The notes beneath the pieces were generated by a model, which saw nothing but the letters and a program-made list of their open reading frames with translations, was not told the DNA's origin and searched no databases. Below, in pieces: positions 55,798 through 62,821 of a stretch of 64,000 nt of DNA (position 1 is its first letter; the number at the start of each line of letters is the position of its first letter). The stretch is from an uncultured Clostridia bacterium. GTDB taxonomy: Bacteria > Bacillota > Clostridia > Oscillospirales > Oscillospiraceae. The position numbers and the translations under genes are program-made. The stretch is taken from positions 1 to 64,000 of the forward strand of contig CANAZG010000001.1 in assembly GCA_947365965.1 (NCBI GenBank), written 5' to 3'.

Positions 55798-56069
55798 TGA
55801 CAGGCCTCCTTTGTATATGGGGAATGGGGGTATTATAGCCCGGCGGGGACATAATTGCAAGGGTTCCGGGAAATTTTGCGGAAAAATCGGGCACAGATGC
55901 AGCAGTCCCCCGGAGTGGATCAAACCGCTCCAGGGGATATTTTATTCACCAGCTTTCGCGGTTCCGTCCACCCCGCCTGCGATGAACATCGCGTCCCCGT
56001 TCCTCACGCTAGGCGTGAAACAGCCGGTTTTTGCATATTCATTCATCCTTATTCATCCGCATTCTACAC

Positions 56070-56110: not shown

Positions 56111-56542
56111 TTACTCAGACTCGGACTCGATTGCGCCGATCAGGTGCAGAATTTGCGCTGGTGTTCTGACCTGCACGGGGCTGTCTGCTTTTAGGAGTCC
56201 CTGGTCTCCAGTGGCGATGTAGTCCGCATCTTCCCTCGCTGCGCAGACGGCAAGTACGGCATCCTCATAGTCGCTCATGGGGGTATTCAAGGCCATCGAG
56301 CAGGCATCTCCATCTACCGGCGCCACATCAAACATAGACAGGACATCGAAAATGGCTTCTCTTGCAGCCTGGTTGCCAATACCCTTTCTGGCCAAGTAGT
56401 ACAGGTCCGTGATGCTGTTCGCTGAAACAACTCCCGTTATCTTCTCTTCGGACACCGCCAGCATAAGCCTGAGAGCATCCTCCCGGCCCGGCCGGTTTAG
56501 GATCGTGTCCAGCAGAACGTTCGTGTCAAAAGCAACCTTCAT
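56111..56542 (-). CDS. PIN-domain toxin (VapC-like)
   Basis: MKVAFDTNVLLDTILNRPGREDALRLMLAVSEEKI...MSDYEDAVLAVCAAREDADYIATGDQGLL; 4-bp overlap with antitoxin. Confidence 0.9.
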   Translation of the reverse strand: MKVAFDTNVLLDTILNRPGREDALRLMLAVSEEKITGVVSANSITDLYYLARKGIGNQAAREAIFDVLSMFDVAPVDGDACSMALNTPMSDYEDAVLAVCAAREDADYIATGDQGLLKADSPVQVRTPAQILHLIGAIESESE

Positions 56543-56760
56543 CTCAGCCGCTCCTCTCTGACTTGCTCGGGGTCAAGGTCAAGCCCCTTCTCCGGGAACA
56601 GGCCGAGAAAGTGCTTGAACGCCTCCTTCTTTGCTTCCTTAGCTGTCACCAGTTTGGCAACCGCCTTACCGTTCTCGGTAATTATGATGTCTTGGCCATC
56701 CGCCATCGCGACATATTTATCCAAATCCGTTTTCAGTTCGGACATCGAAATGCGGGTCAT
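56539..56760 (-). CDS. Type II antitoxin, Phd/YefM family
   Basis: MTRISMSELKTDLDKYVAMADGQDIIITENGKAVAKLVTAKEAK. Confidence 0.9.
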   Translation of the reverse strand: MTRISMSELKTDLDKYVAMADGQDIIITENGKAVAKLVTAKEAKKEAFKHFLGLFPEKGLDLDPEQVREERLR

Positions 56761-56914
56761 ACTAATCACTCCTTTTTTCACTTGGACTCTCGTGTCATTT
56801 GTACAGCAGGGCGAATCCCAACAGTGTCGAAGATCACCGCTTTGAGCAATTCAGCCCATTACCGAACATCCTTCCGGGGTGCAGCGGCCAAGCCGCCGCA
56901 CCTCAAAGTTTTGG

Positions 56915-57193
56915 TCAAAACAAGTCGCTGTGGGTTCCCGTTCGTATCAGTTTCAGAATGAGGGTGTCTCGGTACACCTTGTAGACCAGCAGCCAGTCTG
57001 GCTCAATATGGCACTCGCGCATATCCTTGTAATTCCTGGAGTTAGTCAGATCGTGGTCGCGATACTTCTCAGGCAGGGGCTTCTCAGCTTGCAGGATTCC
57101 TACTACCTCCTCCAGCTTTCGGGGATCACACCCCCGCTTGACCGCCAGCTTGTAGTCCCGCTTAAACTGGCTCGTATACTCAAGTTTAAGCAT
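56915..57193 (-). CDS. Type II toxin, YafQ/RelE family
   Basis: MLKLEYTSQFKRDYKLAVKRGCDPRKLEEVVGILQAEKPLPEKYRDHDLTNSRNYKDMRECHIEPDWLLVYKVYRDTLILKLIRTGTHSDLF. Confidence 0.95.
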   Translation of the reverse strand: MLKLEYTSQFKRDYKLAVKRGCDPRKLEEVVGILQAEKPLPEKYRDHDLTNSRNYKDMRECHIEPDWLLVYKVYRDTLILKLIRTGTHSDLF

Positions 57194-57449
57194 TGAGGGT
57201 CTCCATCATCTCTGCCACACTGTCAAATGGTCCGTGCATATGCTCCTCGTTTTCAGCGTTATCCATGGCCTTTAGTGTTGTTTCGTTTGGGAGTTCCCGC
57301 CGGATGGTGAACGGGATACTGCGCTCGTAGATAGACTGCTTCAAGAAAATATTGATGGCTGTAGATAGGTCCATCCCGAAATCTGCAAATAACTCTTGTG
57401 CTTTCGCCTTCACTTCGGAATCAATAGAAATGCTTGTCGAAACTTTTGC
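57186..57449 (-). CDS. Type II antitoxin, RelB/DinJ family
   Basis: MAKVSTSISIDSEVKAKAQELFADFGMDLSTAINIFLKQSIYERSIPFTIRRELPNETTLKAM; overlaps toxin start. Confidence 0.95.
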   Translation of the reverse strand, partial: AKVSTSISIDSEVKAKAQELFADFGMDLSTAINIFLKQSIYERSIPFTIRRELPNETTLKAMDNAENEEHMHGPFDSVAEMMETLNA

Positions 57450-57564
57450 CATATAGCTCACTCCTTCTTGTTGTTTATATAATTATAACACATTTTGCCT
57501 CAATGTCAATATAATATACACATATTATAACAAAATAGAGCCGGGTTTCCCCGGCTCCACTTGC

Positions 57565-58168: not shown

Positions 58169-58372
58169 TCAGAGCGTGTTCTCTTCACTTCCGGGTGTAG
58201 TTGGGTGGTCTTTGTGTTGACGGCCGTACACGGGCTCTATGGCGGCCGTACAGGGCCCGTCAAGTATAGCTTGTTCTGCCGGGGTAAAACGCAGGGTGGC
58301 CGAGAGATTTCCTTTCAGCCCGACAGATAGCTTGCCAACGCCCGGCCACTGGAATTTGAGCTGCTCATCCAT
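58169..58372 (-). CDS. Small phage-type hypothetical protein
   Basis: MDEQLKFQWPGVGKLSVGLKGNLSATLRFTPAEQAILDGPCTAAIEPVYGRQ...; overlaps the upstream ORF end. Confidence 0.45.
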   Translation of the reverse strand: MDEQLKFQWPGVGKLSVGLKGNLSATLRFTPAEQAILDGPCTAAIEPVYGRQHKDHPTTPGSEENTL

Positions 58373-58676
58373 TGCCAGCCTCCAGCAACTGTCCCAGGCT
58401 GCAAAAATCATCTGGCTGGACCGATGGCCAGTCCCCTTTATGGATTGAGCAAAACAGCCCCTTTCCGTTTGACCCGATGCAATCTTTGCTGTGGGCGCAT
58501 TCCTTGCAGTAACAGGCGCCGGCGGCATGAACCGGGTCGGCACTCGGCCACTCTTCTCGCAATGCTTTGGCAAGCCATTCCGTTCCACGCAAAAATTGTG
58601 TTATGTCCTCCCCAGGCTTAAATAGGTCTTCCGGCAGTCTGATTTCGTCTACCTCGTCAATATCAATCAGCTTCAT
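58365..58676 (-). CDS. Cysteine-containing phage-type hypothetical protein
   Basis: MKLIDIDEVDEIRLPEDLFKPGEDITQFLRGTEWLAKALREEWPSADPVHAAGACYCKECAHSKDCIGSNGKGLFCSIHKGDW. Confidence 0.55.
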   Translation of the reverse strand: MKLIDIDEVDEIRLPEDLFKPGEDITQFLRGTEWLAKALREEWPSADPVHAAGACYCKECAHSKDCIGSNGKGLFCSIHKGDWPSVQPDDFCSLGQLLEAGNG

Positions 58677-58699
58677 TTTCCGTACCCACATCTTCCGGC

Positions 58700-59137
58700 T
58701 TGGGGAACATCAGATCGCCGAGCGAGACACTCGGCGATTTGCGGGAAATCATATTGGGAAGCTATCTCAAGGGGAGTTCGATCCGGGACATCCAGAAGGC
58801 GATTCAGGAGACCTACAACACATCGAAGCGAAAAGCCCAGCTCCTGGCCCGCGACCAGGTGGCCACGCTGAACGCCCAGCTTACGAAGGCTCAGCAGACG
58901 GACGCCGGTTGCAAGAAATACAGGTGGTCGGATTCGCGTGACGGTCGCGTCAGGGATTGCCACAAGGCACTCGACGGGAAGGTTTTCAGTTGGGATGACC
59001 CGCCGGAGATGTGGTACGAGACAAAGCGAGGCCGAGTATACACTGGCCGCAGGTGCCACCCCGGAGAAGACTATTGCTGCCGGTGTGTGGCGATCCCGGT
59101 ATTTGACCTCGAAAGCATCGACGTTCCGATGAAGTAG
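58700..59137 (+). pseudogene. C-terminal fragment of phage minor head protein (Mu gpF-like)
   Basis: IRDIQKAIQETYNTSKRKAQLLARDQVATLNAQLTKAQQTDAGCKKYRWSDSRDGRVRDCHKALDGKVFSWDDPPEM...RCHPGEDYCCRCVAIPVF; N-terminal part absent, no ATG start. Confidence 0.82.
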
Positions 59138-59431: not shown

Positions 59432-59761
59432 GTGAAGAACGCCTACGCGATCAGCAGCATTGCGAGACAGCTTGGCAAGGTGGCTGAGAAGATCGACAGC
59501 CTTGCGATGGGGGTGCAGGACACAGAGCGGGGCGCATCGGACGTGTCCGAGGTGTACCAAGGTCTTCTGCTCGATGAGGTCGAACACGCCCAGATCTTGA
59601 CGCTGGAGCTCACGAGGCTGACCACCGAAAGTACCGGCGAGGACGGATCGAGCAATGCTGACGGTGACGGCAGCGCCTTCGGCCCCGGTGAGCTGACCGC
59701 CGAAAAGACCGGCGAGAACGGTGACGGCGGCGACAACGGGCAGCCCGAGGAAGACAAGTGA
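59432..59761 (+). CDS. Phage head-region hypothetical protein, acidic C-terminus
   Basis: MKNAYAISSIARQLGKVAEKIDSLAMGVQDTERGASDVSEVYQGLLLDEVEHAQILTLELTRL..., followed by acidic low-complexity tail. Confidence 0.6.
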   Translation: MKNAYAISSIARQLGKVAEKIDSLAMGVQDTERGASDVSEVYQGLLLDEVEHAQILTLELTRLTTESTGEDGSSNADGDGSAFGPGELTAEKTGENGDGGDNGQPEEDK

Positions 59762-59801: not shown

Positions 59802-60839
59802 ATGGAGAAGGCCCCAAAATTAACCCGTGTGATTCGCCTGGACAGCCTGCCGCTTGGCCAGGCGTATTTCACGCCCGAAGGCTACCTGAAGGACAGGCCC
59901 ATCCTGACCAGTACGGGTATCTTCGAGTATAAAAAGCGTAACGATGGTGTCCTGTCTCCCGAGGAGCTCGCCAAGGCCATTGAGGAGTACAAGGCCCGCC
60001 GTGCCCAGCGCCTCTCCGCCAAGGCCGACGAGGGTGCGGCCGCCGCTGATCCCGCTCCTGCGGCCGATCCCGTTGAGCCTGCCGCTCAGGACGGGGAAGA
60101 TCCCGTCATCGCTCCCGCCGGCCAGGAGCCCGCTACCGTTGAGGAGAAGGTGGCTATGGTCAAGGACCGCCGCGACCGCCGCGATGAGGAGGGCGACCCC
60201 GCCAACCTTGAGGGGGCGAACGGCGTGATCGCAAAGCAGGATGGCGACATGGACATCCTGTTCGACATCATCGACACCCTGCTCGCACAGAAGGCATTCG
60301 ATGAGTGCGGCGGGGATCCTGCCGCAAAGGGCGATGGCGTTTGCCCCGAGTGCGGCCAGGACCCCTGCACCTGCCACAAGGGTGACGGCGACGGCGAGGG
60401 CGACCCCACTGAGCCCAAGACGGACGGCGACGACGATCCCATCCCGACTGCGACCCCGGCGGACGTTGTGCCCGGTGCGGTCATGAACGCTGACAGCGTT
60501 GATGCCATCGTGCGTCAGCGCGTCCAGGTCGGCGTGGTCGGCTCCATGCTGCACTTGGACGGTATTGAGGGCATGAACCTGCCCGCCGCCAAGGTAGCCA
60601 TTATCAAGGCGGTTCGGCCTGGGATTCGTCTTGACGGCAAGAGTGCCGCATATGTGAACGCCATGTTCGATTGTGCGGTTGCTGATGTCCAGACCCGGTC
60701 CCGTAAGGATACCGGCTACCAGAAGCAGCAGATGTTCAATCGCGATTCCGCCCGGGACACCGGCGATGGGGCGTCAGCCAGCGCTCGGCGGCAGGCCATG
60801 ATTGAGCGCCGCCAGAACAGAACGAAGGAGGATAAGTAA
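59802..60839 (+). CDS. DUF2213-like phage protein (putative prohead protease/scaffold)
   Basis: MEKAPKLTRVIRLDSLPLGQAYFTPEGYLKDRPILTSTGIFEYKKRNDGVLSPEELAKAIEEYKAR; position upstream of cement/capsid genes. Confidence 0.75.
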   Translation: MEKAPKLTRVIRLDSLPLGQAYFTPEGYLKDRPILTSTGIFEYKKRNDGVLSPEELAKAIEEYKARRAQRLSAKADEGAAAADPAPAADPVEPAAQDGEDPVIAPAGQEPATVEEKVAMVKDRRDRRDEEGDPANLEGANGVIAKQDGDMDILFDIIDTLLAQKAFDECGGDPAAKGDGVCPECGQDPCTCHKGDGDGEGDPTEPKTDGDDDPIPTATPADVVPGAVMNADSVDAIVRQRVQVGVVGSMLHLDGIEGMNLPAAKVAIIKAVRPGIRLDGKSAAYVNAMFDCAVADVQTRSRKDTGYQKQQMFNRDSARDTGDGASASARRQAMIERRQNRTKEDK

Positions 60840-60840
60840 G

Positions 60841-61335
60841 ATGAGTGCTCAGACCAGATACGGCTACTCTACCCCGATTGGTGTCGCCGGCGGTATCGTT
60901 GACTTGGCACCTCACGCCATCGACACGTTCCTGAACGAGGAAGATCCCGGTGTCCTCCGGTTCGGTGTGGGTGTTGTTCGGGGCAGCAAGCCCGGCATCA
61001 ACATCGCCCTGCCCGCCGAGGGTGCCACCCCCACCACGTTTGAGGGCATCACCACCAATAACCGCACCACCGAATACGACCTGGATGGTAAGCTGCACGT
61101 CCGCAATGGCGCTGCTGTCGGTGTCATGCGCTATGGCAAGATCTATGGCCGTGTCGCTGAGGGCATTGAGCCCTCCTATGGCGATGTTGTCCATCTGGTT
61201 ACTTCCGGCGATGAAGCTGGCTGCTTCACCACCGAGGCTGATGGTAACGTCGCCATCAAGGCCCGCTTCATCGGCGGCGTGGACAAGAGTGCCCAGATTG
61301 CGGCCATTGAGCTGTTCAACCAGGCGCAGCAGTAA
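60841..61335 (+). CDS. Phage structural cement protein (Gp24-like)
   Basis: MSAQTRYGYSTPIGVAGGIVDLAPHAIDTFLNEEDPGVLRFGVGVVRGSKPGINIALPAEGATPTTFEGITTNNRTTEYDLDGKLHVRNGAAVGVMRYGKIYGR. Confidence 0.83.
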   Translation: MSAQTRYGYSTPIGVAGGIVDLAPHAIDTFLNEEDPGVLRFGVGVVRGSKPGINIALPAEGATPTTFEGITTNNRTTEYDLDGKLHVRNGAAVGVMRYGKIYGRVAEGIEPSYGDVVHLVTSGDEAGCFTTEADGNVAIKARFIGGVDKSAQIAAIELFNQAQQ

Positions 61336-61353: not shown

Positions 61354-62007
61354 ATGGCTAGAATCAAGCACCTGCACTATGATAGCGCCGAGATGCGAAC
61401 GCTGAAGCAGTCCTCCATCCCCGCCGCCATCATGGCATCCGAGGGCACCCACTTTGACAGTGCCGAGGATGCCTCTGTGTTTTTTGCCAGGGAACTCGAC
61501 CATGTCAAGGCTCAGTCCTACGATGTCGAGTACCCTGAGCTCACCGCCCTGCACCTGTTCCCGCAGACCTCCGAGGCTGACCCTGGCGCGGAGACCATCA
61601 CCTACTACACCTATGACAAGGAAGTTACGATGGCCCTCGGGTCCCACATCGTTTCTGGCTATGGTGACGACACGTTCGTCGTGATCGACCCAAACGGTGA
61701 CGGCATCACCAAGAGGGTCGGATGTGACGGCGAGATCGTCAGAAGCGTCAGCCCTGACGATACCTATGTCATCAAGATCACGGTCTTGCAGACCTCCGAC
61801 AGCAACAGCTTCCTTCAGAACAAGTTCAATCAGGACCAGAAGACCGGGGATGGTATGTTCCCGGTGCTCATCAAGGATCTGCGGGGTGGCATGGTATTCA
61901 GCTCCGACGCCGGGTGGGCCGTCAAACCTTCGTCCCGGCAGTTCAGCAAGGAGTCCCAGAACCGCGAGTGGGAGATCCACACCGGCTCTGGCATTCTGAA
62001 CGAGTAA
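61354..62007 (+). CDS. Chimeric ORF: N-terminal 89 codons of a DUF2184-like major capsid protein joined in frame to a DUF3277-like tail tube protein
   Basis: Residues 1-89 MARIKHLHYDSAEMRTLKQSSIPAAIMASEGTHFDSAEDASVFFARELDHVKAQSYDVEYPEL...ETITYYTYDK then EVT-MALGSHIVSGYGDDTFVVIDPNGDGITKRVGCDGEIVRSVSPDDTYVIKITVLQTSDSNSFL...FPVLIKDLRGGMVFSSDAGWAVKPSSRQFSKESQNREWEI. Confidence 0.8.
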   Translation: MARIKHLHYDSAEMRTLKQSSIPAAIMASEGTHFDSAEDASVFFARELDHVKAQSYDVEYPELTALHLFPQTSEADPGAETITYYTYDKEVTMALGSHIVSGYGDDTFVVIDPNGDGITKRVGCDGEIVRSVSPDDTYVIKITVLQTSDSNSFLQNKFNQDQKTGDGMFPVLIKDLRGGMVFSSDAGWAVKPSSRQFSKESQNREWEIHTGSGILNE

Positions 62008-62084: not shown

Positions 62085-62636
62085 ATGAAACGCATGGAAA
62101 CCATAGAGAAGGTCATTGGCGAAAACACGTTCTATATCAGACCATTTGCCGCATTTACGGCATCGAATGTCAGTTGCGAGGCAATCGCAGTTCTCTCCCC
62201 GATCATCGGCGGCCTTGCCCCACTGTTCGGGAACATGGAAAAAGAGGAGACCAGCAAGGCGGATAAGGGTGAGGGCTCTGATTCCGTGGACTGGATGGAT
62301 ATGGACATCGAGGCGGCGCTGCCTTCCATTACCGATGCGCTGAGCAACGTATCAGGTGACAAGGTTGAGCACCTGATGAAACGCCTGCTGGTTGATTACG
62401 GAAACATCAGCGTAGAAGGCCCGGACACCGACGGCAATGTCAAGAAGCTGGACCGCGATCTGGCTGACGAGGTGTTCTGCGGTGAGATCCAGGACATGGT
62501 CATCCTCTGCTATGAGGTTATCAAGCTGAATTTCAGGGGTTTTTTCAAGAAACTCGGAGCCCGATCTGGAAGCCTCACCGAACGGTTTCGGCGGACGGTA
62601 GCTCCGACATTAGTAAGTGGGGAGAGCTCGACGTAA
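62085..62636 (+). CDS. Phage tail assembly chaperone (XkdN-like), zero-frame product
   Basis: MKRMETIEKVIGENTFYIRPFAAFTASNVSCEAIAVLSPIIGGLAPLF...; located right after the tail tube gene, the usual place. Confidence 0.78.
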   Translation: MKRMETIEKVIGENTFYIRPFAAFTASNVSCEAIAVLSPIIGGLAPLFGNMEKEETSKADKGEGSDSVDWMDMDIEAALPSITDALSNVSGDKVEHLMKRLLVDYGNISVEGPDTDGNVKKLDRDLADEVFCGEIQDMVILCYEVIKLNFRGFFKKLGARSGSLTERFRRTVAPTLVSGESST

Positions 62637-62821
62637 CCCAGTTCTCAGAGCTGGAAATGAGGATGTACTCGCTCATCAAGTCTGGGTACGCCTCAAAGAC
62701 GGAGCTCGAAACCGTCTACACTCTTGACGAAGCCCTGAAGCTCTTTGCCCTGTACCAGATGGATCAGGACATTGAACGGGGCCAAGCCGCAGAGATGCGT
62801 CAAGAGATGCAGAAAAAATAG
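62085..62821 (+). CDS. Tail assembly chaperone, predicted -1 frameshift product
   Basis: Slippery heptamer T TTT TTC at 62540-62546; -1 frame continuously open to TAG at 62819-62821: ...NFRGFF-QETRSPIWKPHRTVSADGSSDISKWGELDVTQFSELEMRMYSLIKSGYASKTELETVYTLDEALKLFALYQMDQDIERGQAAEMRQEMQKK*. Confidence 0.72.

Follow-up and report, generated by a model that had tools for sequence, protein, structure and literature searches.

The stretch of DNA analysed here, which we call the window (64,000 nucleotides, positions 1 to 64,000 of contig CANAZG010000001.1 of an uncultured Clostridia bacterium), contains an open reading frame in which the start of a phage major capsid protein runs directly into a tail tube protein. 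It very probably arose when a contractile-tailed temperate phage residing at queA decayed, and a deletion of ~5.26 kb fused the stumps of the capsid and tube genes in frame. We refer below to three relatives: the viral contig IMGVR_UViG_3300035421_000062 (L006), the Oscillospiraceae MAG JAETOQ010000025.1 (L022), and AP018533.1, the complete genome of Clostridiales bacterium CCNA10 (L024). Features lying outside the window are given in coordinates of the contig (C1).

A capsid start fused to a tail tube

The fusion consists of the following parts.

61354-62007, + strand: chimeric ORF of 217 residues, capsid start and tail tube in one frame
61354..61620, + strand: capsid part, major capsid residues 1-89 (phrog_264)
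61618..61620, no strand: deletion joint with an AAG overlap; 5.26-5.27 kb missing relative to L022/L006, frame kept
61621..62007, + strand: tail tube part, tube residues 11-138, chimera residues 90-217 (phrog_280, PF11681)

In searches against PHROGs, residues 19-106 of the ORF match phrog_264, a major head protein (profile positions 10-89 of 321, E 3.7e-13), and residues 84-211 match phrog_280 (E 1.1e-33), with PF11681 also above the cut-off. These matches bear out the sequence-only reading as to the ORF, its coordinates, and its make-up of a capsid start and a tube. The intact capsid protein of L006 covers positions 10-320 of the phrog_264 profile, so the chimera is not a full-length capsid protein. 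Its capsid part is preceded by its own RBS-like AAGGAGG and shares 94-96% amino acid identity with residues 1-89 of the 347-aa capsid proteins of L022 and L006 (95.5% for L006). The tube domain, in contrast, is almost fully matched, its first 10 native residues being replaced by capsid sequence, and its identity to relatives is 95-96.9% for L006, 89% for L022, 75% for L024, and ~58% for Faecalibacterium phage FP_Brigit. The phrog_280/PF11681 part is a putative tail tube; this assignment is based on its position behind the sheath and on the annotation of the FP_Brigit homologue as a major tail protein. The AlphaFold model of the chimera has a pLDDT of 35, which is too poor for judging folding.

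Intact relatives and the missing segment

In L006 and L022, capsid (347 aa) and tube (138 aa) are encoded by separate genes. The order of genes there is MuF, protease, cement, capsid, neck genes, sheath, tube, and chaperone, and the genes that remain in the window follow it. Whereas the two halves are directly fused in the window, they lie ~5.3 kb apart in L006, L022, and L024. Between them, L006 has a lysine-rich ORF without family match and a structural protein of phrog_302. Also encoded there are a protein for the neck or for tail completion, a head protein of phrog_939, a tail terminator, and the sheath. The colinear DNA alignment stops at 61620 on the capsid side and restarts at 61618 on the tube side with all three relatives alike. 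This confirms the switch right after codon 89 (DK) and places the joint at 61618-61620. The deletion took out the remainder of the capsid gene together with the tail sheath, tube residues 1-10, and five small ORFs, most of them for head and neck proteins. As had been proposed from the letters alone, the intervening genes, including the sheath, are indeed missing, both at the locus and in the rest of the genome assembly.

Two further claims of the sequence-only reading did not stand. It had described a complete tube protein beginning at MALGSHIV, but the intact tube has 138 aa and starts MGKIKTY[N/S]PKEVTMALG, and 10 of its native residues are lost. The native N-terminus in the intact relatives is MGKIKTYNPKEVTMALG, and the EVT of the chimera is thus already tube sequence. 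It had also suggested that the tube could be translated alone, from the RBS-like AAGGAAG and the ATG at 61630. This is not supported, as both fall on codons inside the tube gene, whose native start is deleted: AAGGAAG encodes K-E-V and is coding sequence in intact phages too. In the alignment of homologues, other tubes have Ile or Val where the chimera has the Met at 61630; this Met is hence not a conserved start, and we rejected it as an internal start codon. A hypothetical tube made from this Met would be short by 13 native residues.

Other rearrangements in the element

The comparison with intact relatives mapped the deletion, which the sequence-only reading had seen, but this is just one of several rearrangements. 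The neighbouring genes are the following.

58718..59137, + strand: MuF-like head morphogenesis gene, 3' part, 5' part cut off (PF04233, phrog_324)
59432..59761, + strand: intact 109-aa ORF, colinear with relatives, 95% amino acid identity to L022
59802..60839, + strand: head maturation protease/scaffold, internally deleted, with an in-frame joint (phrog_530)
60841..61335, + strand: capsid cement protein, complete (PF22758, E 6.8e-21, profile positions 2-144 of 146)
62085..62636, + strand: tail assembly chaperone, complete (PF21822, phrog_1613)
62657..62821, + strand: 54-aa ORF 3' of the chaperone (phrog_31474), protein identical to those of L006 and L022
62822..64000, on to C1 64428, no strand: inserted cargo of 1.6 kb, between the 54-aa ORF and the tape measure start
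C1 64429-64480, outside the window: tape measure remnant, first ~15 codons

The protease carries the second internal deletion. Its N-terminal ~45 residues are joined to the C-terminal ~300 at 59934-59935, with AA common to both sides and the frame kept, and 474 bp of its core are lost in L006 coordinates (blastn break 2543|3016 in L006). Its best match to phrog_530 covers profile positions 274-382 only, against 16-255 for the N-terminal half of the L006 protein.

The MuF part was aligned by blastn to L006 1326-2543, and also to L022 and L037. The gene is cut at one point, and 49 bp that belong immediately upstream of the cut are found inverted 5.8 kb away (C1 64479-64527), where they touch the tape measure start. 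This layout would best be accounted for if the cluster was inverted with respect to its neighbours and the remainder was lost at the same time or afterwards. To the left of the MuF break, at a distance of 26 bases, a minus-strand ORF of 108 aa (58365-58691) begins, and the structural cluster thus lacks its native upstream region.

The cargo comprises a 101-aa ORF and a 367-aa protein encoded on the minus strand (L031 9211-10314, minus strand), the latter with weak matches to the candidate defence families PDC-S11 and PDC-S18. L006 has a different sequence at the same place, which suggests that there may be a cargo hot spot here.

Integration site and borders

The borders of the element are marked by the end of a host gene.

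55971..55998, - strand: left copy of the queA 3' end (codons GDAMFIAGG), att-like left border, from the reading of L031 and the queA 3' ends of relatives
C1 70152-70178, outside the window: right copy of the queA 3' end, at the end of intact queA
~C1 66965-68692: serine recombinase

In four relatives (L043, L045, L050, and L055) the site is empty and queA adjoins a small membrane-protein gene; the same gene lies here to the left of the element. Together with the duplicated queA end, this gives an element of ~14.2 kb at queA, with a serine recombinase. Its left end holds two toxin-antitoxin-like pairs (56111-57461), a PIN protein with a Phd/YefM-type antitoxin and YafQ with RelB. Just before the recombinase, ~100 bp of a late phage gene occur in minus orientation (C1 66836-66941, L031 12837-12942); this is another stray fragment of the same phage type.

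Incomplete or cryptic prophages have lost structural and lysis genes and kept integrases (PMC7744054). The element resembles such defective prophages (PMC7744054), which bear an integrase and in which the lytic and structural genes are for the most part deleted, truncated, or rearranged. It has host-gene borders and a recombinase, namely the duplicated queA 3' end, the serine recombinase, and the site empty in relatives, and it has lost virion genes (upstream of MuF, most of the capsid, neck, sheath, and most of the tape measure), none of which the assembly contains elsewhere. Unlike typical cryptic prophages, however, the remnant is unusually tidy, with all remaining structural ORFs open and two in-frame joints, one of them producing the capsid-tube chimera.

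Selection and expression

Over ~1,211 codons, dN/dS is 0.105 between the window and L006, 0.108 between the window and L022, and 0.109 between L006 and L022, with a synonymous divergence of ~0.5. By this measure, no relaxed selection was seen on the window branch. Since the window has the same dN/dS as intact phages, the decay would be too recent to show in substitutions, and at such a synonymous divergence a recent deletion would give the same dN/dS as none. Judging from these comparisons, the decay is probably recent. Promoter-like sites occur at chance level. With the late operon upstream and the 5' end of MuF lost, we infer little or no transcription of the chimera, which probably has no role.

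Origin of the chimera

An origin by in-frame deletion in a prophage, as first proposed, is well supported by the separate genes of the intact relatives and by the lack of the fusion in every collection searched. One may ask instead if the fusion is ancestral, i.e., if it represents a genuine family of two-domain phage proteins. The ORF is continuous, as noted above, and conservation of such a protein across phages was what the sequence-only reading had named as evidence against itself. However, our searches, of which the pattern-based ones can miss distant cases, found the fusion in no other source among 199 relatives, viral contigs, species genomes, and 50,697 phage records. No phage record reached 80% query coverage at one place, and every relative found matches a single half per place. 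The two-domain family is refuted at the sensitivity of these searches, and we regard it as virtually untenable. It is also highly improbable that the chimera is expressed and kept, in a reduced mobile element or domesticated prophage, as a decoy created by deletion, with the capsid-arm/tube fusion poisoning the heads or tails of related infecting phages during assembly. The in-frame joints, the retained RBS of the capsid start, the strong constraint across all remaining codons, and the presence of a recombinase and att-like repeats are in line with such a use. Yet this constraint equals that of intact phages and can predate the deletion, the upstream operon is lost with no promoter above chance, and viral contigs, species genomes, and phage records hold no second example.

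Another explanation is that the chromosome has an intact prophage and that the joints were made in library preparation or assembly. The source assembly is fragmented and incomplete (230 contigs, 77% complete), the joints are read from this assembly, and several joints with tiny overlaps, one of them inverted, fall within one element whose remaining codons show no decay. Nevertheless, the 2-3 bases common to both sides are far below the length at which assemblers collapse repeats, which excludes this cause while amplification chimeras stay compatible. Moreover, neither the deleted segments, including that between capsid and tube, nor the region upstream of MuF is present elsewhere in the assembly, and on its 166-kb contig the element is cleanly flanked by queA and the next host gene. 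We thus consider an artefact unlikely.

Prophage decay is therefore our preferred reading. The phage would have entered the chromosome at the 3' end of queA and decayed afterwards, with joining at 2-3 common bases removing pieces of the prophage. The deletion of ~5.26 kb would have joined the major capsid gene, after its codon 89, to the tail tube gene from codon 11 onwards, giving the 217-aa chimera. The likely mechanism is microhomology-mediated joining. What counts against decay is that all remaining ORFs are open and that both internal deletions are in frame (chance ~1 in 9); some retained use would account for this as well. A literature search for capsid chimeras produced by in-frame deletions in defective prophages found none.

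Under prophage decay, the chimera is a chance in-frame fusion in an ordinary early stage of that process and not a new kind of protein. It calls for caution, as a recent deletion can leave behind an open two-domain ORF whose constraint statistics are strong, and false fusion families or misannotated capsid genes can grow out of such chimeras. The remnant in the window represents a clean case of prophage decay at an early stage, its joints having 2-3 bases common to both sides.
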